A model generated the notes under the pieces. The model made no database searches. It was given only the letters and a program-made list of their open reading frames with translations, and was not told the origin of the DNA. A stretch of DNA of 64,000 bases from Rhizophagus irregularis (Eukaryota; Glomeromycota; Glomeromycetes; Glomerales; Glomeraceae). Both the position numbers and the translations under genes were made by a program. The stretch is from assembly GCF_026210795.1 (NCBI RefSeq), contig NC_089441.1, forward strand, positions 1,488,001 to 1,552,000, in the 5' to 3' direction. Positions 30,328 to 64,000 of this stretch are shown piece by piece. Within the stretch, counting starts at the first letter, position 1. Each line of letters starts with the position of its first letter.

Positions 30328-31785
30328 ATGTCGCATAATTTTATATCTAAAGTAACTGAAGCGCTTGGACAATTACTTGTAACAGAAACGGATTATAATG
30401 TTATTGTTCACATTGGAAAAGAACCTAATTCAAAAGAATTTCATGCGCATTCTATTATCTTACGCTGTAGGTCCGAATATTTCAATAACCTGTTTTCTAC
30501 AAAAAATATTGAAGAAAGTGATGGAAAATATATAATTAAGAGACCAAATATTTCTCCTCAAGCTTTTGACATTATTCTTAAGTGAGTAGCTGCATGTCTC
30601 TAAAAATAAAATTTTTATAATAGACTTATTTCTATTACTTCATATAGGTACTTTTATACCGGTAAAATTAACATTACTAACGAAACTGGAACCGAACTTT
30701 TAGATCTTATGATTGCTTCTGATGAATGTATGTTGGAAAAATTATCTAAACTTACCGAAGACTTTATTGTTAAAGAACAACAACAATTTTTGCAAAATGA
30801 CCCAGTCGGAATTCTTCAAATTATTTATTGTCGTAAAACATTTGTTGAGTTGCAAAAATATTGTTTGGATAGAATCTGTTCTGATTCAAATAATTTATTC
30901 GAATCTGATAAATTCACTCAATTACCTGCTCCTTTATTGGAAATTATTTTAAAGCGTGATGACTTGAAATTAGAAGAAATTGAAATTTGGGATAATTTAA
31001 TCAAATGGGGATTGGCGCAAGAACAAACTCTTAATAAAAACGTCACTAGATGGAACCAAAATGATATTAATACCTTTAAAAAGATTCTTGACAAATTTAT
31101 TCCTTTAATTAGATTTTACGATATATCCGCTAGAGATTACTTCAATAAAGTTAAACCCTACGAAGAAATTTTACCTAAAGAATTAAGAGATGATATTTTA
31201 AAATCTTATATGATTTCTGAATACAAACCTATATATACGCCAAGACATCTTTATATTGACTCCATTATGATCAATCGGAAACAGCTTACAATTTTTGCAA
31301 ATTGGATTGATAAAATGAAAGAAAACGTCACATATATTAATGATATTCCTTATAAATTTAATCTTTTATATAGAGCTAGCAGAGATGGAAATACAGCTGC
31401 AGCATTTCACGCTAAATGTGATGATAAAGGAGCTACTATAGTTGTAGTAAAAATTACTAATTCAGAACAAATAGTTGGAGGATATAATCCACTTAAATGG
31501 GATTCAAGTAATAGTAGAAAGCAAACAAATGATAGTTTTATTTTTTCATTTTCATATAGAAGTAACCTTCAGACTGCAAATGTAGTTTACAGTCAAAATA
31601 ATGATCATTCTATTCAATGTTATTCATATTGTGGTCCAGTATTTGGTTTAAATGATTTATATATAAATTATGATGATGATCCTTACAATTGGTACCATGA
31701 TGGATCATCATCTTATCCTACAATTAACATACCGAACTGTACAAATGTAGATGATTATGAAGTATTTCAGGTTATTAAAATATAA
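30328..31785 (+). CDS. BTB-BACK-TLDc protein, 463 aa
   Basis: Exons 30328-30581 and 30648-31785, with a 66-nt phase-2 intron. Coding length 1392 nt. BTB contains DYNVIVHIGKEPNSKEFHAH. BACK contains FLQNDPVGILQIIYC and LLEIILKRDDLKLEEIE. TLDc contains FANWIDKMKENVTY, RASRDGNTAAAFHAKC, GGYNPLKWDSSNSR and DYEVFQVIKI. It is the closest visible relative of the gene at 40684-42184: not only the coding regions but also about 170 bp of promoter and 5' leader match, and the two genes face each other. This suggests an inverted duplication later split by transposons. Confidence 0.92.
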
Positions 31786-33677: not shown

Positions 33678-34800
33678 CTATATGTGTGATTGACAAATCA
33701 CTTGTGGAGTCTTGTGATAGAGATTTCCCATGATGAGACCATTCATTTGTCGGAAATAAAGTTTTTGTTGGATTTTAATTTGGGTGATTTGTGGTTTTGA
33801 AGTCGAATAACTGGTGGTCACAAAGCGGTTTTGATAATCTTCGGTGGTTGCTGAGAATATGGTTTTCTTCAAGTTCCATGAACCATGAAGGGATTTTATC
33901 CTTATAATTGCGTTTGTTATTGATTTTGATTTCTTTCCATGTAAGCAAGTAACATCCATCACTTGTCGCAAGTTTGATCCATGTATAAAATATTCTTTTT
34001 CTTTAGAGATTCTATTTGAGTAAGATTTTGTAAAAGGTTCTAACTGGTGTATTGCCCTCACGTAATGTCTTCTATATATAGAGTTGAACGTTTCAGATAA
34101 CATTGTCTGAGTTGTATAGTTTCCAATATCTGTAGTTGTACTGAGTGATAGAGCTGACGTCAAAACGGCATCTTGGTTTATAGTCAAAGAGATTGATATT
34201 GTAAGTATCACGATAATAGAAAAAAGGGTTGCCAGAAGTACCTGGAGGTAAAAGAGGTAGAGATTTTTTCTTTTTATTACACTTTTTCAATATGGTGCAA
34301 CCAGTTTTCGCTTGTTGTTTGTCTTTTTTGAATTCACCGAGCCAATACCTATAATATAATAGTTGTCATTTGTAGCCTAATATGTATTTCTGTGGTAAAT
34401 GTTGAATCTGTTTAAAACAGTAGGGTTGGGTAGATGTGATGTTGGGCTATTTAAGATATAGGGTTTGAGATTTCCCCAGTGGTTTTCTTGTTTGAGTACG
34501 CTTTGTGTGAGACAGTTCCATCGTGTTGTTTGTTAAGGTAATCTAACAATATCGAATTTAAGTTTGGAGTATTTTTTGTAATAAATACGTCCTGTTCTAA
34601 TGTTGTCTTTATCAGTAGGATTGACTATAATTTTTTTTAACTCAGAGTTATGATCTCCTAAACTAGAGTTATATTTTCTGGTGTAACTAATCCCTAGGCA
34701 GTTACAATGAATTTCTTTGGCATTTTTCTAATTCCTTGTCTAACACTCCTATTTATACCCTTTCACGTATGGCAATTCACCATATAACTTTCTGATCTAA
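33678..34800 (-). pseudogene. Unknown multi-copy ORF family, copy A (decayed)
   Basis: Minus-strand blocks LPPGTSGNPFFYYRDTYNIN and RCRFDVSSITQYNY match copy B (35755-37041) at NFNGNPCSYYHQTYNIN and RRRFDVSSISHFNY. Upstream, GISYTRKYN and IRTGRIYYKKYSKLKFD match GITYDVSIK and SKTRLYYKEYDNFKVN of copy B. The part nearest the LINE (33678-34100; RLSKPLCDHQLF) has no counterpart in copy B. Many frameshifts. Function not recognised. Confidence 0.5.
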
Positions 34801-35433
34801 ATAAAATGTCAAATTATTTCTATAATTTCAAATTAGAAATATTTACTTAACCAATAATTTACAAAAATAGTTTTACGTCATTGCGGACCACATTAATTCC
34901 AAATAAACCCTATTTGATGATATTGATGGTATTGACGATAGTTTAAGGTCAATTCCGGACTGCAGTAAATAAAAAAAACTTAAAAATTTATACACTTAAA
35001 TAAATATAATACTGCACCCCACAATTAATAAATTCACTAGATTTATTTATTTATTTTTTGTGAAGTTTGGATAGATAATTAAACAGGATATATACCCTCG
35101 AAAGGGATTTTATCCTACTTCTTACTATCATCCATTACATAATGGACCCGAACTTCTATATAAAAAGTATCTAGTTTAATCCTATGCTACTACCAACATG
35201 GGAATAAACGATGAATTCAAGGATGAACAAAACAAAAAAAGGAGTTCAAGTCTATCACCATTTTTCTTTTAACTAACAAATACTAGTTATTGTATGTAAA
35301 TACTGTCATATACAAAATAATGTAATATATATAGGTCCATGATTGTTTTTTAAGTATAAGAACAAATAATAAAAAAAAAGACGAACAAAAAATACTACTA
35401 TATGTATATGTTTAAAAAAAAAAATTATAAAAG

Positions 35434-35733
35434 TTAATATTGCCCAGGCGTGGGTGGAGTATACTCATTTCTCGATCGAGGCCGTACAATAGGCTTTGGA
35501 GTAAAATCACAATTAGGTCTGATAGGTTCTGGTGGAGGAGTCTCAAGACAAAGACGAGTATTGTCTTGATTCAAAGTACTCATATTAGTTGTTGAGGGAT
35601 TAATTAGAACTTGCCCAAATGTAGGCGCGAAAATATTTCTTCTTTTTTGAATTCGCACTATGGGACGTGAGGTGAAATCCTTGTATGATTCGTTAGGATC
35701 AGTAGACAGTATGACATTAGAAGAAGCATTCAT
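35434..35733 (-). CDS. Unknown protein, 99 aa, two-fold repeat
   Basis: ATG at 35733 to TAA at 35434. The product contains two copies of a Pro-rich unit, DFTSRPIVRIQKRRN...FGQ and DFTPKPIVRPRSRNE...PGQY, about 60 residues apart. No domain was recognised. It starts 22 bp after the last stop of the copy B family ORF and may be the end of the same former gene. It could be a real small gene or a surviving fragment. Confidence 0.35.
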   Translation of the reverse strand: MNASSNVILSTDPNESYKDFTSRPIVRIQKRRNIFAPTFGQVLINPSTTNMSTLNQDNTRLCLETPPPEPIRPNCDFTPKPIVRPRSRNEYTPPTPGQY

Positions 35734-35754
35734 TTCTTTAATATAGAGTCTTAC

Positions 35755-37041
35755 TTAGCTATCTGGAAGAGCGGTAAGAAATTTGTCGTCAAATCTTTTT
35801 TGATGTAGAAGATTCGCAACAGGAGGATTAGAACGTAGATATTTTTGATGTCTGTTATAGAGCTTCTTGGCTTTTGAATAACCGTAATTGAAATGAGAGA
35901 TACTGGATACGTCAAATCGGCGTCTCACTTTGTAAGCATATAAGTTGATGTTATATGTTTGATGATAATAAGAACAGGGGTTTCCATTGAAGTTTGGTGG
36001 TAAGTCAGGTAAATGTTTCTTGAGTTTATTATGCTTTTTAATGTGGCGAGCCCAATTTTTGGCCAGTTTCTGAGTGTGTTTTTTAATCCTTTTGTCCAAA
36101 TCGGACTTATGGAAGGGGTACAGTCCACTAAATGGACTAATTTCTTAAACACCATAGAATTATCTTTTAACAAAAGAGTCGCAGGCCAGTAATAATAATA
36201 TTGTTCTAAATCAGTGGCCAGTTTCTTTAAACGAGTCCAACGTTTCACTTGTTGTGGGTTCTAACATCATTGACCTTAAAGTTGTCATATTCTTTGTAGT
36301 AAAGGCGTGTTTTAGATATGCCATCTTTTGTAGTCTTGGTGGTAGGTTCCATTACTTGTTTCAAATAAGGGTCTTTCCCTCTCCATTCATTGTATCGTTT
36401 AATGGAGACATCATAGGTAATACCTAAGCGTGTTGAAAAAACTGATTTCCCATGATTATAAGGCACGTGACTTAAATTTTGATAATAAAAACTAGGATTT
36501 TGAGGAAGTTTTCCTTCTCGTTGTTTGCCTTTATTAGGTGTATGTCTTGATAGAAGGCCAAGATGGTTATTGCATTTCCATCGATTTTGTAAAAGAATAA
36601 AGGCCGCCAGTTGGTTACAATGACTATCGCAGGGAAAATAATATCCTAAGTCACGTGAGCTCCAGAACTAAAACGAATAAAAGTTTTAGTTTGTCTATTT
36701 TTAGTTTTCTGAGAAATTCTATTTTTAATCGCCAACATTTTATTTAATAATAGTTGGCATAAGCGTTTGAAATATTTTTTTACAACAGCTGGTGCAAATT
36801 GTCGATTAATAGCAAAGACGAAGGTGAGGTAGGTCCCTATTAAGTAATTGAGGTTCACTTTTTTACTGGTTGAATTGAAGATCCTTTGGTGATCATTAGT
36901 CATTTCACTATCATTGGTGCAGACGTTGAAAAAACTTTCCTTTGTTAGATTGAGATCAGCATTTGGTGCTAGCTGAAGAAGGAAGTATCTACTTCTCTTA
37001 GTGTTATACAGAGTGCCACTACCACGTGTGTCCCTAACCAC
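35755..37041 (-). pseudogene. Unknown multi-copy ORF family, copy B, frameshifted
   Basis: Four overlapping frames read in order as one former protein of more than 400 residues. RDTRGSGTLYNTKRSRYFLL (about 37020) is followed by a frame with CDSHCNQLAAFILLQNRW and NHGKSVFSTRLGITYD, then KRWTRLKKLATDLEQYYYYW, then KKHLPDLPPNFNGNP and FDVSSISHFNYGYSKAKKLY up to a stop at 35755. Neighbouring frames overlap by a few codons, as expected from single-base indels. The start resembles copy C. No known domain was recognised; a small Cys/His cluster (CDSHC...CNNH) is visible. Confidence 0.5.
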
Positions 37042-37199
37042 GTATGGGTTGATTCGTTTGGTATTGAAAGAATAAGCGTAAATATTACCACGCTGGTTTA
37101 TAAAATTTGTATTCGCTAACTATTACTGTTAAATAAAAATAAAAAATAAAAATATTACCACGCTGGTAATAATAAATTCACTAGATAGATTCATATTGC

Positions 37200-40683: not shown

Positions 40684-42184
40684 TCAATCTAATGATTTTT
40701 TAATAACCTGAAATACTTCATAATCATCTACACTCATAGTGTTTGGTAAATTAATTGTAGGATAGCAAGATGTAACACTATACCAAACGCTAGGTTCTCT
40801 TACATAATTTACATATAAGTCACCATAACCGAATCCTGGACCATTTATTGGACTACTATATACGGATCTTCGCCAATTGTTACTATATGCCACATTCGCA
40901 CGCCGAAGGCCGTTTTCATTCGTAAATGAGAATATAAAACTACCACCTACATAAGTACCTATATAACTTGAATCATCTGAATCCCAAAAAAGAGGATTAT
41001 ATCCTCCAACTATTCGTTCTGAATTTGCGATTCTTACTACAACTATAGTAGCTCCTTTTCTATCACATTTGGCGTGAAATGCTGCAGCTGTATTTCCATC
41101 TCTACTAGATCTATATAAAAGAATAAATTCATAAGGGATATCAATATAATTGGTGTTTTCTTCCTCTCTATCAATCCAATTTGCAAAAGTTGTAAAATGT
41201 TCTTGACCAATAATAATAGAGCCATTAATATATCTAGGATTCCTTGGTGTATATACAGGTTTGTATTCAGGAACCATATAAAATTTTAAAATATCATCTC
41301 TTAATTCTTTAGATAAAATTTCTTCGTAGGGTTTAACTTTATTGAAGTAATCTCTGGTGGAAATATCATAAAATCTAATTAAAGGAATAAATTTGTCAAC
41401 AATCTTTTTAAAGGTATTAATATCATTTTGGTTCCATCTAGTGACATCCCGATTAAAAACATGTTCTTGCGCTAATCCCCATTTGATCAAACTTTCCCAA
41501 ATTTCAATTTCTTTTAAGTTTAAGTCATCACGCTTTAAAATAATTTCCAATAAAGGAACGGATAGTTGAGTGAATTTATTAGAACTGAATAAAATTTTTG
41601 GTTCAGAACAGATTTTATTCAAACAATATTCTTGCAACCTAGCAAATATTTTATAGCAGTAAATAATTTGAAGAATTCCGACTGGATCGTCTTGCAAAAA
41701 TTGTTGTTGGCTTCTAAACATAAAGTCTTCGGTAAATTTAGTCAAATCATTCAACATACATTCACCAAAAGCAATCATAAAATCTATAAGATCGGCTCCA
41801 GTTTTATCAGTAATGTCAAATTGACCGGTATAAAGGTACCTAATATGAAAGTGATAGAAATAAGTCTATTTATGTATAAAAAAAGAGTATAAAAATTTTA
41901 TTTTCAATAACGTACAGCAGCTATACTCACTTAATAATAATATCAAAAGCTTGAGGAGAAATATTTGGTCTCTTAATTATATATTTTCCATCTCTTTTTT
42001 CAATATTTTCTGTAGAAAACAGGTTATTGAAATATTCGGACCTGCAGCGTAAGATAATAGAGTGCACATGAAATTCTTTAAAATTAGGTTCTTCTCCAGT
42101 GTGAATAATAACATTATAATCCATTTCTGTTTCAAGTAATCGTTCAAGCGCTTCAGGTACCTCAGATTCAAAATTATACAACAT
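40684..42184 (-). CDS. BTB-BACK-TLDc protein, 469 aa
   Basis: Exons 41931-42184 and 40684-41839, with a 91-nt phase-2 intron (GTGAGT...ATTAG). Coding length 1410 nt. The start is the ATG at 42184 (MLYNFESEVPEALERLL), aligned with the family; the open frame continues upstream into the leader without support. BTB contains DYNVIIHTGEEPNFKEFHVH. BACK contains FLQDDPVGILQIIYC and LLEIILKRDDLNLKEIE. TLDc contains FANWIDREEENTNY, RSSRDGNTAAAFHAKC, GGYNPLFWDSDDSS and a longer loop (YIGTYVGGSF) than its relatives. It ends DYEVFQVIKKSLD. It is the inverted partner of 30328-31785. Confidence 0.92.
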
Positions 42185-42298
42185 AATTTTAAATTGAAAT
42201 TTCTTAATATCAAAATTTTTTACAAAAAAAATTTTTTTTTTACGCAAGAAAGAATAGAGACAATGAAATTGAAGATCTATATTAATAAAGTTAAATCT

Positions 42299-42321
42299 CG
42301 GATAAAACTTTCCGAACCAAT
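42299..42321 (-). promoter_or_regulatory. CGG-N10-CCG dyad plus inverted CCAAT
   Basis: CGG at 42299-42301, ten bases, CCG at 42312-42314, then CCAAT at 42317-42321, about 115-130 bp upstream of the ATG at 42184. The site and its flanks mirror those at 30189-30211. Confidence 0.5.
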
Positions 42322-42920
42322 TAGAATAACTATAGTAATCCGATCGGCTTAAATTTAGTATATTTATATTTATATGCATAGTTTTTGCTTTACCTATCAA
42401 AATTTTTCATCGTAATCATGATCACGTGGCCATACAGGACCTGGATATGAGTTACCGGTTCGTATACTTAGTAATTTTAGAGAAATTTCATGCATCATCT
42501 CACTAATAATATCAAATAAAATTAAAGGAGAATATTTTAGGCTCACATTTATCAGTTAAAGTTTCATTATGTCGGTTGAAATATACAGTAACTTCATTTA
42601 AAAATGGTTTGAATTTGCCCGTCTACCTTAGTTTAAAAAATTTATTTGCAATTATATTTTCTTACTCGGAATAAAAGTTATCAAATTGTAAATTGAAAAT
42701 TTTCACTAAGTCTTGTTGGTAAACCATTGTGTTTAGAATAAGACTTAAATCAAACATAGTAGTAATATAAAATGGTTTTTTGAATGAGCCGAGAATACAA
42801 TAATCGTTGCGAGGAACACAATTCAAAACTAGGGTCAAGATCAGATTCTGCCAAAATAAGAATTTTAATTATTAACAAAAGAAGTTAGTTTTTGAAAAAC
42901 AATCGAAAAAGCACGAAAAA

Positions 42921-56041: not shown

Positions 56042-57059
56042 TTCTTTTGTTTTTTTGATATTTTTTTTTTAAAAAAAAAGAATCTCGGAATCCAGAAATG
56101 AAATTTACCGAAGTTGTGCGACCTGTATGGAGTCTTCTTTAAATAATAAATACTAGTAATACTGTACGACAATAACAACAATGTTTATGTAAGAAATCAC
56201 TAAACAACTATAGTACACATTTGATGATCTTTTTGTAATTGTGTCGGATGTAAAAAAAACTATTTAAAATTAATTTTAATTGAAAAGATAATATGAAGAA
56301 GTTACATTATTATTATAGAATGTAGATTTGGATTTTTTTTATATACCGTACTACCCTATTATTATATTATTAAGAATTTGCCTAGATCAAGTTTAGTTCG
56401 TATTCTTACAAAATAAAATTATTTTTCTTTATCTGATTAAAACTAAGAAAAAAATGTATGTTCTTCTTACATCTAAGGTTTGTTTTTCCCTTCTCCGATA
56501 ATAATCATAAACATCATTTCATTTACAGTAATTAAAAATAAAATAAAACAAAATTATCTCTTTTCAATAATTTGTAAAATTTTATAAAAAAAGTAGATTT
56601 TAATGCTAGAACAAATGGATGTTTAATTTAATTTTTTAATCACAAGACTAAACATAATCTAATTACTTGTACCTCGTTTTTCAAAAAATTAAATTTAAAA
56701 TATAAGTATTGATTTAATGTGCTACTCGTTGAAAAGTATATAGAGATTGCTTATAGTAGTACAATACAATTATTTACATTATTCGTAATCGTTAAGAGTT
56801 TAAATTAAAATTTTATGCAAGCTCCGCGTATACATTACAGAAACAGGTTAAATTGCGGCTTTGTGGCCACTACACTTCTACTATATATATATTAAAAAGT
56901 AGTAGGCGTACCGCTATTTTATAGTAAATATGGTGTGGCGATGCAGTACTTCCATAGCTAGTATATAGAAAATTAGTATAAATGTAAATTTACCATAATG
57001 TATACATGTAGTAGCGATGTAACAAATTAAAGTAAATGTATGGTAATTATAAGTTCTAA
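56042..57059. other. Intergenic, nothing recognised
   Basis: AT-rich sequence upstream of the BTB-BACK gene. The right end grades into the ACATTTACGGTAA repeat. Confidence 0.4.
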
Positions 57060-57355
57060 TAAAAGTAATTGTGTAGTAAATATAACTTTTATTTGTAGTA
57101 ATTATGTAGTAAAATATAATACATTTACGGTAAACATATAGTACATTTGTGGTAAACATATATTTCATTTGTAGTAAAATATAATACATTTACGGTAAAC
57201 ATATATTACATTTGTAGTAAGCATATAGTACATTTACGGTAAGCATATATTACATTGTAGTAAGCATATAGTACATTTACGGTAAGCATATATTACATTT
57301 GTAGTAAGCATATAGTACATTTACGGTAAACATATAGTACATTTATGGTAAATAA
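57060..57355. repeat. Satellite of about 24-25 bp (ACATTTACGGTAAACATATA)
   Basis: About twelve units, alternating ACATTTACGGTAARCATATA and ACATTTGTAGTAAGCATATA, so that a higher-order unit of about 50 bp is visible (57170-57330). Confidence 0.8.
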
Positions 57356-57399
57356 TACTCAATTATAATTTTATCCTCAAATATTAGTTCCGGACAATT

Positions 57400-59060
57400 C
57401 AAGTTGAAGTTCGTTGTCCAAGTGTTGAATTCCTATAATACAAAGAAATAAATGTCAATTAACATTTCTTTCACCTGTTTAAAAAATCAAATCGCTCATT
57501 CCCTTATTCAATATACCTTTAGGCCGATTTCAACATCCAAGAGGTAATCCTACAAAATAAAGAAATTGGTTAAGTTCTATAAGAATTTACAAGAAGTTAA
57601 AGTGGAAGACCTACAAAGCAAAATTCAAGCAATCAATCAAGTCCAAAGAAGCAAAAATTCCAGTTCAATCCAAGTAACCGAATCCAAAAAAAAGACGCGT
57701 AATAAAGTTCATTAAAAATCTTAGTAAAAAATTCAAAGAAGCACCAACTGAATCTCACATGCCCAAGAAACCAAAGAAACATCTATAAAGAAAAAAAAAA
57801 AGAACTGTTAGTAACAGTTCATTAAATAAATGAATTAAAACTCCCAAAATCTGCATACAAAAATCAAAGAAGCCGCCAACTACGAAAACTCACTGAATCA
57901 AAAAAATTTGTCGTTCCAAGTTCCAATCAAAAAAATCCATGCTCGGACATCTAAAAAAAGGAAGACGCTTTCAAAGATCCGAAGTATAAGCCGTCTAAAA
58001 AAGGGAAAACAAAACATTAGTACTGTTCCATTAAAAAAAAAAGAAATCATAAAGGTTAGTCCCTACCGAAATTCCACGCGTTCTTTAGCCATGATCTGAC
58101 TAAAAATGAAAAAGATGAAATGTTAGATTCGTCAAAACTAACAAAATTAAAAAAAAAGCTTCTGATTTCTCTCACCAAGAAATCCTAGCATCCCGACTAA
58201 AAAAAAGAAAAGGATGAAAGTTAGAAGGTGTTTCATTAAAATAAATAATATTTAAGTATATTTCAACTCACCTGAAATTTACGTTTCAGACACGTTTACG
58301 AAAAATCTTTGATTTCCTACCGAATTTACACATCCAGGCTCGTCTAAATAAAAAAAGAAAAGAACGAAATGTTAGAAACATTTTGTTAAATAAATAAAAT
58401 TAAAAAACATATTCATTTTGCTACCAAAATCTGCATTCTAAACCCGTCAAAGAGAACTTCCAAAATTTAACAAAATTCGTACGTCAAGGCCCATCTAAAA
58501 AAAGAATTAAATTCGAAATGTTAAATATAATTTCCGTTACAATAATAAACTAAAACAGAGAAAAAAAAATCTTACTGAAAGCAAAATTCTGTGCGTCCAA
58601 GATCCCGAAGTACTTGCTGTCTAGGAAAAATGAAAGGACAAAATGTTAGTAAGCGTTTCGTAAAAAGATTCATTTAAAAAATATCCATTTAAAATCTCAC
58701 CTTACGCATCCCAAAAAGTCACCTAAAAAATGAATTAAATTTGAAAATAAATATAGTCCCGATTTCCTTTCCCATGCGACTAGGCCCGTCTAAAAAAAAG
58801 ACAAAGTTTGAAACGTTAAACATACATTTCGTTAAAATAATAGACTATAACAGAGAAAAAAAACTTACCGAAAACAACATCCCGTGCAACCAAAGAGATC
58901 CGAAGAATTGCCTGAAAAAGAAAAAAATGAACTGTGAGTAACTGTTCGTTAAATAAATTAAAGAAAAAAAAAATTTTTTTCTAAAACTTACGAAATGTCG
59001 CATAGGAGACCAAGGGAACCGCCTAAAAAAAGAAAAAAAATTGAAATGTTATAATGTTTC
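57400..59060 (-). repeat. Array of exon-like segments with splice-like edges, minus strand
   Basis: Read on the minus strand, short segments of 20-80 nt are each preceded by a T-tract ending AG and followed by GTAAG or GTGAG. Clear examples are 58992-59022, 58869-58911, 58701-58722 and 58576-58620; others end near 58497, 58343, 58199 and 57951. Upstream of the T-tract there is often a self-complementary stem (GAACTGTTAGTAACAGTTC at 57802-57820 is perfect; later ones are degenerate, with G-T pairs). The segments differ in sequence from each other and keep no common reading frame. The grammar is the same as that of the array at 60590-62300, in opposite orientation. Short open frames seen on the plus strand in this region are accidental. 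Confidence 0.55.
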
Positions 59061-59199
59061 ATTATCGTTATAGAATTTGATTTTTTTTGTGGTTCTCTTC
59101 AACTCTTTTTTAAATAAAACATGATAAAAGATGGAAAGGACGGGGAAAAAAAATTGAAATTTAACTTATTATAAAAAAAATTAAAATATGATGGTTAAA

Positions 59200-59620
59200 A
59201 AAACTGTAAAAAAAAAATTTTTTTTAAATTAACTTTTAACGGAAAAAAAAATTATAGACAGTTTTTTAACATAGAAAATTTTTTTTTAAAAAAAAATAAG
59301 ATATAAAATAATGAAGAGGAGAAGGAACGAAGAGAAAAATGAAGGAAAGAAATGGGAGAATGAAAGGTAAAGAGCGAAAGGGGGATGATTAGTTTCGTTG
59401 ATAAAAAAGTTTAAAAAAGTTAGACTGATCAAACTGCGGGTAGTATATCACGTGAAGCTAATTACCGCTGCGGACTGCGGTATAGCAAAAAAAATTAAGC
59501 TTTTTTTAGCAAAGCTTAATTTTTTTTTGCTTCATTCTCCCCTTCCCTTTCATTTCCCATTACCTTTTCGTCCCATTTTCCCCTTTTACTTTCCCTTTCA
59601 CTTTCCATTTAAAAAAAAAT
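59200..59620. other. Foldback-prone purine/pyrimidine region
   Basis: A purine tract (59305-59395) and a pyrimidine tract (59525-59610) flank a stem of AAATTAAGCTTT and AAAGCTTAATTT around 59490-59530, so the segment can fold on itself. It directly precedes the splice acceptor of the broken BACK-TLDc gene. Confidence 0.5.
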
Positions 59621-59637
59621 CAATTTAATATAATTAG

Positions 59638-60590
59638 GTATATTTATACGGGTGAAGCTGATTTATGTAAGAAATCTGGAGAAGATATTTTCGGAGTTTT
59701 GATCACATCAGCTGAATTTCTTCTCGAAAAATTATTTAATTATGTTCAAGATCATTTAATTAAAAAACAGACGATTTGGATAAAACAAAATTTCGCTTAT
59801 GTTTTTTATACAACTTTTAAACTTGAAAATTGCGAAAAATTGCAGGATTATTGTATGGAATGTATGAGTGAAGATTCACAATTATTTACTTCAAAAAATT
59901 TTCCATCACTTGAAGAAGATATTCTTTATAACTTACTTAAACAAGACGACTTGCAGATCGAAGAAATTGTTGCTTGGGATTTTTTAATTAATTGGGGTAT
60001 TGAACAAATTTCTGGTTTGGGAAGCGATAGAACAGAATGGAGTGAAGATGATTACGAAGCATTAAAGGGAACTATAAGTCAATTTATTCCTCTTATTCGG
60101 TTTATGGATATTTCTCTCGCAGATTTTTACGATAAAGTTCATCCTTATAAAGCTGCTATTCCTCTCCATATTTAAAGAATTCTATTATAAAAAAACTTTG
60201 TCAAAACCCGAAATCTTACCGCCACGAATTGGAAAACTAAAAATCGAATCAAATCTTATAAATTCAAAACTAGCTAATATAATTGCTAGTTGGATCGATA
60301 AAAAAGATTTAAACAATATAACATCCAGTGACAAGTATAATTTTGATCTTCTTTATCGTGGTAGCGAGGATGGAATTAATTCGAAGTCATTTCATGTTAA
60401 ATGTAATTATCGAGGTTCTTGCTTGGTATTAGTTAAAAAAAAAAATCAACAGAAATTTACGGAGGGTATAATCCAATTGGATTTACAAATTCTAATAGAA
60501 AATACCCTGCAAGTGATAGTTTTATATTTTCTTTTGAAAATGGTGAAGATATTCAAAATATGAAAATAAGTCGTGTGAATTAACTTTCTT
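59638..60590 (+). pseudogene. BACK-TLDc gene relic, two frameshifts, BTB exon absent
   Basis: It begins at a family-type acceptor (ATTAG, then GTATATTTATACGG; YIYTGEADLCKKSGEDIF). BACK runs to 60173 (FLINWGIEQ, SQFIPLIRFMDISL) and hits a stop; the next frame resumes without a gap (KEFYYKKTLSKPEILPP). TLDc starts at IIASWIDKKDLNN and YRGSEDGINSKSFHVKC, shifts again in the A11 run near 60437-60447, and continues in another frame (IYGGYNPIGF, DSFIFSFENGED) to KISRVN, where a TAA and the hairpin array begin. The BTB exon and the last 50-60 residues are missing. It is quite diverged from the rest of the cluster. It lies exactly between two divergent hairpin arrays. Confidence 0.75.
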
Positions 60591-62300
60591 TAACGAAACG
60601 TCAAAAAACGTTTCGAAAATAATTTTTTTTTTCATATTTTTTTAATCGGAACGTTGGCTAATGTTCCGATTTTTTTTTATTTTTTCATTCTTTAACGAAA
60701 CGTTTTTTAACGTTTCAAAACATTCTTTTTTTTTTCTTTTTAATCGGAACGTTAGCTAACGTTCTGATTTTTTATTTTATTTCATTTTTTAACGAAACGT
60801 TAAAAAACGTTTCATTTTTTTTTAAATTTTTTTGTTTGTTTTACGAAACGTATCTAACGTTTCGTTTTTTTTTTTTTTTTTAGGACCGCGGCTTTCTGGA
60901 CAGCTCACGGACAGGAATTTTGAAGGTAAACCTTCAAAATTGTTTTAACTTTGTTTTTAACGAAATGTGACTAACGTTTCGTTTTTTTATTTTTTTTAGG
61001 TCTGGATGATTCACGGACGGAATTTCGAAGGTAAACGAAATTCCTAAATTAATTTTTTTTTAATTTATTTTAACGAAACGTGACTAACGTTTCTTTTTTT
61101 ATTTTTGTAGGTCTACGGGTTCCCGGGTAAAATGGTGAGTTTTGCAACGTCCGTTGCGAAACTTTGAATTTTTTTTATTGTTGAAGAAACGTGACTAACG
61201 TTTCTTTCTTTCTCTTTTTGTAGGTATCGGACTTCGGGGTAGTAGAATAGTAAGTTTCGCAACAGATGTTGCGAAACTTTATTTTCTTTAATTTTTTCTT
61301 TAAGAAACGTTCTAACCGAACGTTTCTCTTATTTTTTTTGTAGGTTCAGTCAACTTCGAGATTTAGAGTTTTGGAAAATGGTAAGTTTCGTACGTTTTGT
61401 TACGAAACTTCCGTTTTTTTTGTTTTTTTCCTTTAAGAAACGTTCTAACTGAACGTTTCTCTTTTTTTTTGTAGGTTCGGCCGTTCAGATGTCTTCCGAA
61501 GAACGGAAAAAACCAAGTTTCATAAGTACGAAACTTGGTTTATTTTTTTTTGTTTTTTTTTTGTAATATTATGGAACGGTTACTAATAACCGTTCCCTTC
61601 TTTTTTTAGGTTTCGGTGGGCTTCCGATCTTCGGAAAAAGAGGAACCAAGATTTGTAAGTACGAATGTGAATCTTGGTTTTTGTTTTCTTATTTTTTAAC
61701 ATTACGAACAGTTACTAATAACCGTTCTTTTTTTTTTATAGATTCGGGAAGGCTTCTCAGTTCCGAAGAACGGAAAACCAAGATTCGTAAGTATTCTGAA
61801 TCTTGGTTTTTATTTTTCTTATTTTTTTAACATTACGAACGGTTATTAATAACCGTTCTTTTTTTTTGTTTAGGTTCGGGTGGTCTTCCGAAAATAAGAG
61901 GAACCAAGATTCGTAATTATTCCGAATTTTGATTTTTTTTAATTGTTTTTTATTATTATGAACGGTTTCTAACCATTCTTTTCTTTGATTTTTATAGGAT
62001 CGGGTGGGTTTCCGACGAACGGAAAAAGAGAACCAAGATTCGTACTATGAATCTTGGTTTTATTTTTTATTCTTTTTTTTTAAAAAATACTATGAACGGT
62101 TATTAATAACCGTTCTTTTCTTTTTTATAGGTTCGGGTGATTTCTGACTAATGATGAACCAAGATTCGTAAGGTACGAATATGAATCTTGGTTTTATTAT
62201 TTATTTTTTTTTATTATTATGGAACGGTTTGCTAACCATTCCTTTCATTTTTTTTATAGGGTTTGAGTATAAAAACGGTATTTTCGTAAATTTCACGAAA
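60590..62300 (+). repeat. Hairpin array with 12 exon-like segments, plus strand
   Basis: Six hairpins without exon-like parts (60594-60615, 60644-60671, 60697-60716, 60742-60769, 60794-60813, 60843-60865) are followed by twelve units with a period of about 115-130 bp. Each unit has a stem (for example AACGAAACGT / ACGTTTCGT, later GAACGGTTA / TAACCGTTC), a T-tract ending AG, a 24-47-nt segment, and a GTAAGT-like donor in the loop of a second stem. Segments: 60884-60925, 61000-61030, 61111-61134, 61224-61249, 61344-61380, 61475-61521, 61610-61654, 61742-61786, 61874-61912, 61998-62041, 62131-62167, 62260-62285. In the sixth the donor GT is AT; in the tenth it is GTACTA. Stems differ between units yet remain complementary. 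Segment lengths are not multiples of three, so a conserved protein product is not supported. Confidence 0.8.
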
Positions 62301-63132
62301 TTACCGTATTTTTTTTTATTTGATTGCATTCCCACCTTGTTATGGTTGTGTCACCAGGGGCGCTATGTCAACGGAAATTTAGTATGTTGATCGCTTAAAA
62401 ATCCGCGGCAATCCAATTATAACAAGAGGAATTAATTTTTTGATAAATAAATTTACAATATTTTACAATTAAATTAATTAAATTTTAAAATATATATGTT
62501 AATAATATCAGATATACAATGTTAATAAATACCTTTATACGCCTGTTTAAAACTTCCTGATGATAATATTACAATAAACTGAATTAATCTTTTATTGATT
62601 GATTTAAATTTGCATTTTAATTATTTTAATTAATTTTAAAAAATTATTCAATTGAATTTATTAGCAATTCTAATACTTATTTTTTAATAATTATAGTTTG
62701 ATCGTATAATTTTTTCGAATTATTAGATAAAAATACATTATAATAAAAATTAAAGAAAATATTGCACTATAAAAAATATATAAAAAAAATCATTAAAATT
62801 CTTTATAGCATCTATATAGCTGATGTGTAGTAATGAGAAAGAAACTGAATAGTCAAAACGAAAAATTGCCGCTAGCACGTGATCATATAGTCATGTGATG
62901 GTAACATACAAGCGGCGTAGGGTGTCCAGGATTTGACGTCGTGATAGCCCAAAAATCAGGCGTGAAAAATCACAAAAATCGTGAAAATCGTGATCCATAA
63001 TTTCAGCCAGAATTACCATAATTCTGGCCAGAATTAACATAATTCCAATTATGAAAAACTTTTTAATAATTTATATTCTATACAAATTTTATTTATTTAT
63101 TTACAATTAAGTAATAAATTTATACATTTATA
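62301..63132. other. Intergenic, with a palindromic AATTCTGGCCAGAATTA patch
   Basis: AT-rich. At 62870-63050 a less AT-rich part contains CACGTG, GGCGTAGGGTGTCC and repeated AATTCTGGCCAGAATTA-type palindromes shared in degenerate form with 6390 and 21790. It lies downstream of the hAT gene stop. Confidence 0.45.
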
Positions 63133-64000
63133 TTATTCATAAATCATCAATTCATTATTATAATCATCATTATTACTAAGATTAAAATAAAGAAAATTAA
63201 GCATTTGAATATTTTCTTCTTTAAGCGCTACTCTTCTATCTGATAAAATGCTTTTATAACTAGAAAAACTATGTTCAATATCTACACCAGATACTGGCAA
63301 CCATATATATATTAAAGCCAGTGAACTAAGTTCTGGTAATATATGTCTTTTACCTTGCCAATACAAATCCAAATCATCAAACTCTTCAATAGATTCATTA
63401 AGTCCACAGTAAATAGCCCATTCTTGTATTAAAGTATCAGTAGGAAGATAAAATTCTTTGATAATTCTATAATTTTCCATATTATGATTAGATGAATTAG
63501 ATTGAATAAATCTTGGATCAAAACATTGTATTGCTTTGAAAAATAATAAAGCTGGATGATGAGATATATGTTTCTCACATTTTTCATTTGCCAATATAAA
63601 AGCTCTAGAAAATAATGAAACAAAAGATGCAATATCTTGATTTTCTTCGTTTAATAATTGGAATATTTCATTTGAAATTGGAGGATTCCTGGTTCCTGAT
63701 GATAAAAAAGCTTGAAGAGATACTATTCGTGAATAAACAAATGGAGCTATAGCCTTGTTTCTTATTTTAAAGAATTCCAAATCATTGATTAATCTAAATA
63801 AATAAAGTATTATATTAGTAATATTATTATAAAATTATTAAATCCATTAAATTCACTTACCTTTTGCTATTATATGTAATAAAATATATAAATATTTTAA
63901 CACAAAAAACATGGCTTCTGTTTTGACAAAATGTGTAAAGATCTCGAACAGCTTTTGAATCATGATTAATAGAATATTCTGCAGTAACAAAAGTTATTAA
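63133..64000 (-). CDS. hAT-family transposase-like protein, 3' part (cut by window edge)
   Basis: Exons 63861 to beyond 64000 and 63133-63793, with a 67-nt phase-2 intron (GTAAGT...TTTAG). The frame is continuous across the junction. The visible C-terminal 266 residues contain EYSINHDSKAVRDLYTFC, a Leu/Phe-rich middle, and the hAT dimerisation region LPVSGVDIEHSFSSYKSIL followed by SDRRVALKEENIQMLNFLY, with the family's Ser-Phe-Ser and Arg-Leu-Leu-type spacing. The N-terminal BED finger and RNase H-like catalytic core, if present, lie outside the window. The presence of an intron and an intact frame allows either an active element or a domesticated gene. It is a candidate source of transposase for the 8-bp-duplicating MITEs at 9520 and 14242. 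Confidence 0.85.

Follow-up and report, generated by a model that had tools for sequence, protein, structure and literature searches.

What is a tandem array of small hairpins that frame splice-site-like sequences, and how might such an array be carried in the genome of Rhizophagus irregularis? These questions are raised by a locus near one end of the window, the term used here for the whole stretch of DNA that was analysed (64,000 nucleotides). An earlier note, made from the sequence alone, had proposed an RNA structure that controls splicing, a cluster of introner-like units or a structured satellite transcript. The analysis presented here indicates that the locus is probably a non-autonomous DNA transposon of the cut-and-paste kind, its right end being that of the Plavaka family and its cargo a tandem series of mini-introns and microexons. 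This reading draws on sequence and database comparisons, namely the termini of sister copies with their target duplications, ends common to transposase-bearing elements, splice signals, gene models and a host fragment whose parent lies elsewhere. Our confidence in it is good but not higher, because the gene model assigned to the locus (P0122) is in part computed and because branch points and GT dinucleotides change no more slowly than the rest of the element.

Architecture of the array

The features of the array and of a second array in the window are as follows.

60585–62300, plus strand: hairpin/microexon tandem array, with six leading hairpins, then twelve units of acceptor hairpin, T-tract, AG, microexon and donor hairpin
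60884–60925, plus strand: first microexon; its donor GTAAAC at 60926 is flanked by the arms AATTTTGAAG and CTTCAAAATT; used by the P0122 model
61000–61030, plus strand: second microexon; used by the P0122 model
61224–61249, plus strand: fourth microexon; absent from P0122 but apparently present in the strain A5 model P0121 (exact peptide block of 6 residues, 61235–61252)
61874–61912, plus strand: ninth microexon; donor GTAATT at 61913; P0122 runs through this donor and then ends
57300–59400, minus strand: second, divergent array, with 8 acceptor modules and its own CT-rich start

The branch point of fungal introns is CTAAC or a close variant, and U1 prefers GTAAGT. Acceptor modules were searched for by a script that looks for a hairpin spanning a branch-point-like [CT]TAA[CT], a T-rich stretch and then [CT]AG preceding G or A. 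Within 60501–62400 it recovered 12 modules, in agreement with the twelve units of one grammar described in the earlier note, with intron ends (AG) at 60883, 60999, 61110, 61223, 61343, 61474, 61609, 61741, 61873, 61997, 62130 and 62259. The same script found 7 modules in 58.4 kb from other parts of the window (1–57000 and 62601–64000, both strands), and 200 dinucleotide shuffles of the array gave a mean of 0.30 modules and a maximum of 2. A donor was assigned to 7 of the 12 modules by a strict script and to 10 by a looser one. The six leading hairpins said to lack an exon-like part are visible at 60595 to 60863, the sixth doubling as acceptor hairpin for the first exon, and the series of stem sequences quoted in the note can be read directly in the window. 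The statement that every donor sits in a loop holds less well: most donors lie in or beside hairpin loops, but those at 61135, 61250 and 61381 stand at the stem base. The majority of branch points lie within or adjoining hairpin loops. Over 20 arrays, the median exon length is 47 nt (205 exons) and the median intron length 87 nt (n = 182).

A known structured RNA family was rejected as the identity of the array, since an Rfam scan of the window gave 0 matches above the gathering score, the weak hits (E up to 5) all falling below the cut-off of their families. The minus-strand array has 57 genome matches, counting itself and its duplicate, mostly short pieces of 66–92% identity. This second array, a captured host exon and a transposon right end are features missing from the earlier note.

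Elsewhere in the window, several BTB/BACK/TLDc-like genes in both orientations occupy 3765–31785 and 40684–42406 according to the list of open frames (30610–31782 was checked by Pfam). On the minus strand, the stretch 33681–37119 has a distinct base skew and holds open frames, four of which lack a Pfam family; one of the open frames in this region contains the letters MTNDH, which also begin the array protein P0101. A tandem repeat of 22 bp (GTAAACATATAGTACATTTACG) lies at 57109–57352, and a fragment of a hAT transposase, covering the dimerisation region, at 63133–63834 on the minus strand (Pfam E 6.7e-9).

Copies in the genome and transposon ends

The R. irregularis genome (146,748,485 bases in 32 contigs) was searched with a 681-bp piece of the array, which gave at least 177 matches at no fewer than about 40 sites (sites counted by eye; the best 40 of 329 candidates were scored). 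Twenty array sites were taken with their flanks and compared all against all. The likeness among sister copies ends at common points that are inverted repeats, and both terminal inverted repeats, with at most one mismatch per end, are present in 18 of the 20 loci; L009 and L028 have the right end only. Two groups are apparent. The Plavaka-ended group comprises 8 elements of 3.5–3.8 kb that end in CATCAGCAAGTTT, with 2-bp target duplications in 8/8. The CACTA-like group comprises 11 elements in ten loci that end in CACTAGTCGAAA and measure 1.8–3.6 kb, with 3-bp target duplications in 8/11, the exceptions being L014, L017 and L022. Overall, 16 of the 19 array elements with paired inverted repeats bear target duplications; these element counts refer to the outermost repeat pairs, 8 of 27 rows in which an inner left repeat (or its mirror in L016) was paired having been left out. 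The splice sites recur within transposons of 1.8–3.8 kb, distant from the element ends, and the window array is 75–78% identical in its best alignments to the arrays of CACTA-like loci.

Since the copies lie within elements with sharp ends, a satellite or simple tandem repeat was rejected as an explanation, and the structured satellite transcript gives way to cargo carried by DNA transposons whose ends are Plavaka or CACTA-like. The suggestion of an introner-like cluster fares no better, the copies examined being transposon cargo and not single introners within host genes.

Elements with the same ends encode transposases. The sequence CATCAGCAAGTTTKAAAA occurs exactly at 67 genome sites (reversed control, 0), and the Plavaka transposase domain PF18759 has 123 genome matches, seven of which (C2, C4, C5, C12, C14, C15 and C29) lie by eye about 2.15 kb inward of an end of the CATCAGCAAGTTTKAAAA type. 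L033 is a transposase-bearing Plavaka element (PF18759, E 3.9e-34) whose left 370 bp are common to L019, L025 and L027 at 86–88% identity. No array was found over the 7.5 kb of L033 examined, and conversely blastn of the interiors of L019, L025 and L027 matched L033 at its left end only, so that no transposase was seen in these Plavaka-ended array elements. On the CACTA side, CACTAGTCGAAAWARGG occurs exactly at 73 genome sites; each has the AATAAGG form, and many are paired about 6.8 kb apart. L042, a 3-kb piece between paired CACTAGTCGAAATAAGG repeats, encodes Transposase_21/tnp2 (PF02992, E 1.6e-14), and no array was found in this piece. The ends shared with the CACTA transposase element are those of the 8 CACTA-like elements of AATAAGG form; L011, L012 and L015 have an AAAAAGG form that the CACTAGTCGAAAWARGG pattern does not match, and over 137 bp their right end shows 89% likeness to the AATAAGG form. 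A KDZ transposase (PF18758) was considered as the mover of CACTAGTCG elements and rejected, since, by eye, the listed inverted-repeat pairs enclosed 0 of its 23 matches. Three Plavaka matches (C9, C12 and C30) lie, also by eye, inside wide CACTAGTCG pairs of 16–36 kb, which speaks against a clean split into two families; they are perhaps nested insertions.

The window element and its captured host fragment

The element in the window can be followed from a promoter-like stretch to its right end.

59446–59610, plus strand: promoter-like stretch and CT-rich tract, common to Plavaka-ended array elements
59611–60580, plus strand: captured host fragment of 970 bp, with intron end, acceptor, BACK and the first part of TLDc; frame broken
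62331–62431, plus strand: right subterminal motif of 101 bp, conserved and foldable (RNA fold z −2.2), found in array-bearing and transposase-bearing elements
62550–62562, minus strand: right terminal inverted repeat CATCAGGAAGTTT, with one mismatch to CATCAGCAAGTTT

The stretch 59446–59610 has its best matches, at 78–88% identity, in L018–L020, L023–L027 and L011. The captured fragment sits between this transposon-like CT-rich tract on its left and the array on its right. Searched as two separate pieces, it proved 97.0% identical to C14:1407310–1408291 (L043). In the parent gene on C14 (1.7 kb viewed), a BTB-type first exon precedes the intron and the frame is open through TLDc to the stop. 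The window copy of this BTB/TLDc gene begins within the intron and retains the acceptor and BACK; frame changes break it up, and partway through TLDc it gives way to the array.

At the other side, the 13-base match of CATCAGGAAGTTT could be due to chance if taken alone, but the 30 bases 62533–62562 align with other element ends at about 97%. The motif at 62331–62431 is 96–100% alike in 40 copies (the best 40 of 147 genome candidates) and occurs at the far side of 6 of 7 transposase-bearing Plavaka elements. It matched no Rfam family, and it may serve either as a site to which transposase binds or as a structure at the 3′ end of an RNA. Only the right inverted repeat of the window copy was recognised, and L009 is a 95% segmental duplicate of window 56831–62918. 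The window copy therefore has a Plavaka-type right end, its mobility as an element being putative. A host fragment together with an array was seen at the window locus only, where the right inverted repeat is the only one recognised. No host parent was recognised for the 191-bp last exon of L027, which has 13 matches, 12 of them full length (11 at 99–100% and one at 93%).

Published gene models and the use of splice sites

The isolate DAOM197198 is represented, according to PMC10234402, by an assembly of 146,773,001 bp with gene models refined by Illumina and Nanopore RNA reads. A search of a protein database with the exon chain of L011 matched 137 proteins, and all 120 among the matches listed carry R. 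irregularis names; they include an isoform series (RIR_jg29739.t3,.t4 and.t6). Peptides predicted to span the junctions between microexons were compared with these 120 annotated proteins, in which 138 of 207 occur exactly. The corresponding controls gave 0/207 for unspliced acceptors, 29/207 for unspliced donors and 26/828 for donors shifted by 1–2 bases. L011 is favoured as it was the query (16/16); when it is omitted, the count is 122/191 and the controls 0/191, 22/191 and 24/764. The agreement varies among loci, with 2/9 for the window, 1/7 for L035 and 0/4 for the reverse array of L018.

The exon chain of the window finds P0122 (GLOIN_2v1722037). This model has blocks in the captured TLDc piece at 60370–60384 and 60455–60574, with a donor at 60573 by reading frame, and its microexons follow the AGs at 60883, 60999, 61110, 61343, 61474, 61609, 61741 and 61873. 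The AG and GT sites singled out in the earlier note (60926, 60999, 61031 and 61110) are all four used. Several traits of P0122 are peculiar: a gap leaves out 70 nt of the TLDc piece that are exonic in the parent, as though an intron had been predicted there to get across a frame change; the model closes the third microexon at a donor near 61127, not at 61135, where the hairpin has its donor; the fourth microexon is omitted; two residues lie outside exact blocks; and 96 of 147 seven-residue words match the window. The gene models, P0122 included, may be computed in part. P0123 is a similar model with a better fit to L009, and P0133, a metagenome prediction, reads through two introns. Pfam recognised no family in 10 annotated array proteins or in P0122 and P0123. 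In P0063 and P0064, which are likewise without a Pfam family, the array peptides follow an acidic N-terminal part that presumably resembles the start of a CACTA-type transposase. As to an RNA structure that controls splicing, the splicing half of the proposal is borne out insofar as many of the AG and GT sites are spliced in published gene models, while selection for pairing, its other half, is unsupported, as shown below.

Covariation and pairing of the stems

Both arms of the stems change together, as had been noticed, when unit classes are compared. In acceptor stems (255 sites), 70 double changes keep Watson–Crick pairing and 16 do not, against a mean of 13.3 and a maximum of 27 pair-keeping changes with shuffled arms; in donor stems (208 sites), the values are 58 and 11, against a mean of 11.5 and a maximum of 25, all of these counts being inflated by relatedness and by the mixing of unit classes. 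When only distinct arm pairs are taken, 34 are found in acceptor stems against a mean of 17.0 and a maximum of 31 (59 pairs), and 17 in donor stems against a mean of 7.2 and a maximum of 15 (40 pairs). The search was confined to arrays, a looser version (up to 3 mismatches in 8–9 bases) having been dropped as it caught unrelated sites.

Single-arm transitions give a different view. A C to T change in a stem keeps a G-U pair and a G to A change breaks the pair, yet the former number 85 (46 acceptor, 39 donor) and the latter 83 (43 acceptor, 40 donor); with distinct arm pairs the numbers are 40 and 38 overall. This equality argues against present selection on RNA pairing. The idea that the joint changes of the arms reflect such selection is accordingly not upheld, much of the covariation being between whole unit classes. 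Between the window and its duplicate L009, 52 of 66 differences are transitions, many of them at CG, and there is one G-C to A-T double change (62098/62111), in which both positions are CG sites and may have changed independently. In folding predictions for 122 units, picked partly by their hairpins, donors are unpaired with a value of 0.63 versus 0.43 with scrambled arms, and branch points with 0.70 versus 0.54.

Constraint within the elements

Rates of change were compared among labelled parts of the elements. The larger CACTA-like group shows, in substitutions per site, 0.016 for AG, 0.035 for the T-tract, 0.046 for the branch point and 0.051 for GT, with 0.044 for the rest of the element, 0.069 for donor positions +3 to +6, 0.066–0.077 for the stems, 0.081 for the spacer, 0.108 for the donor loop and 0.144 for the exon core. 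Among the parts of the arrays in this group, the exon cores evolve quickly and the splice signals slowly, but branch point and GT change at least as fast as the remainder of the element. The other groups differ in detail. Group 1B has 0.000 for AG, 0.008 for the branch point, 0.028 for GT, 0.033 for the spacer and 0.041 for the exon, its GT being no slower than the rest of the element (0.026). Group 1A has 0.000 for AG, branch point and GT, 0.009 for the spacer, 0.029 for the exon, 0.043 for the acceptor stems and 0.060 for the rest. Group 3 has 0.000 for AG, 0.012 for GT, 0.074 for the branch point, 0.058–0.083 for the stems, 0.124 for the spacer, 0.134 for the exon and 0.014 for the rest.

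Alternative explanations

A sizeable minority chance is given to the idea that the hairpins act as DNA, namely as palindromes, with template switching at quasi-palindromes keeping their arms alike and unequal exchange spreading them, splicing being independent of them. It accommodates the equal numbers of C to T and G to A changes in stems, the predominance of transitions, many at CG, between the window and its duplicate, the shift of both arms together as whole classes and the existence of leading hairpins without an exon. It leaves unexplained, however, that AG is the slowest-changing part within arrays and that gene models use the sites. It is compatible with the transposon and splicing parts of the preferred reading. 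Far less room is left for a host gene family near which transposons have fallen, the array not being their cargo: although several R. irregularis gene sets list the arrays as genes, paired inverted repeats enclose 18 of the 20 examined, target duplications flank 16 of 19 such elements and the likeness of sister copies ends at the repeats, which makes this account very improbable.

Coding use of the microexons is possible, but a chiefly protein-coding role appears unlikely; in that view the array would encode a rapidly evolving repeat protein, with one and the same exon serving in different frames. Annotated array proteins reach 425 residues, one chain of 18 exons is open for 271 codons (P 0.005 versus random chains), and chains are open beyond chance (P < 0.05) in 4 of 21 arrays; stops in 175 distinct exons number 196 versus 231.7 (sd 9.5) in shuffles, a test that relatedness makes overstate the effect. 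Against this, 17 of the 21 arrays miss P 0.05, exon lengths leave remainders of 0, 1 and 2 in 81, 52 and 72 cases, the exon cores are the fastest-changing labelled part in the larger CACTA-like group, and the window chain has at least three stops in each frame.

The reading retained is thus that of a non-autonomous transposon carrying mini-introns and microexons. On this basis, transcription would start near the CT-rich tract, the hairpins would help U1 and U2 to gain access to donor and branch point, and the array would make the RNA of the element resemble a normally spliced mRNA and link captured host exons with series of microexons. Unequal exchange or slippage between units is the probable source of new ones. 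A bolder version, in which the array is a selected splicing device shared or exchanged by Plavaka and CACTA elements, whose hairpins frame every donor and branch point and whose frame-tolerant microexons turn an upstream host exon into alternatively spliced chimeric mRNAs and so into a source of new genes, is offered tentatively and seems unlikely.

Relation to known systems

Exon-capturing transposons and introns riding on transposons are already known. The array elements resemble Pack-TYPE and Pack-CACTA transposons (as presented in PMC8903248) in being non-autonomous, in having the ends of autonomous families and, at the window locus, in having host gene sequence beside the array. They differ in that those elements are described there in plants, whereas the common cargo here is a tandem intron–microexon array; in the main text of that paper the words 'intron' and 'fungi' have 0 occurrences. 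In Tgm-Express1, a soybean CACTA transposon, gene fragments inside the element are, according to the abstract of PMC1947982, likewise spliced as exons in many combinations, but they are five unrelated host gene fragments within the intron of one gene, and that abstract makes no mention of tandem hairpin units. Introners are also introns on DNA elements, and many of their families have inverted repeats or target duplications (PMC9860276). In the usual sense of the term, an introner is a single intron that enters a gene and is then removed by splicing, whereas here up to 18 units lie within one larger transposon. Finally, the ends and the right subterminal motif are as in the transposase-bearing copies of this genome, like the R. 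irregularis Plavaka transposons treated in PMC11075540, the main text of which has 0 occurrences of 'intron' and 'tandem'; unlike autonomous Plavaka elements, the array elements compared have no transposase that was found.

Among the matches listed, titles and abstract openings on R. irregularis introns, introners, Plavaka splicing and Pack-TYPE/CACTA elements did not describe such arrays. Nor did they mention a mobile element, known with the ends of two transposase families, that carries up to 18 concatenated mini-intron units whose splice sites are framed by hairpins.

Significance for R. irregularis

More than 100 unnamed or uncharacterized proteins of R. irregularis (137 were matched by the L011 chain) may be transposon arrays. 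A transposon with tiny exons joined to a host fragment suggests how mobile DNA might assemble new spliced genes and, if splicing is confirmed in reads, would point to a way, open to testing, in which an obligate symbiont could gain new multi-exon genes.
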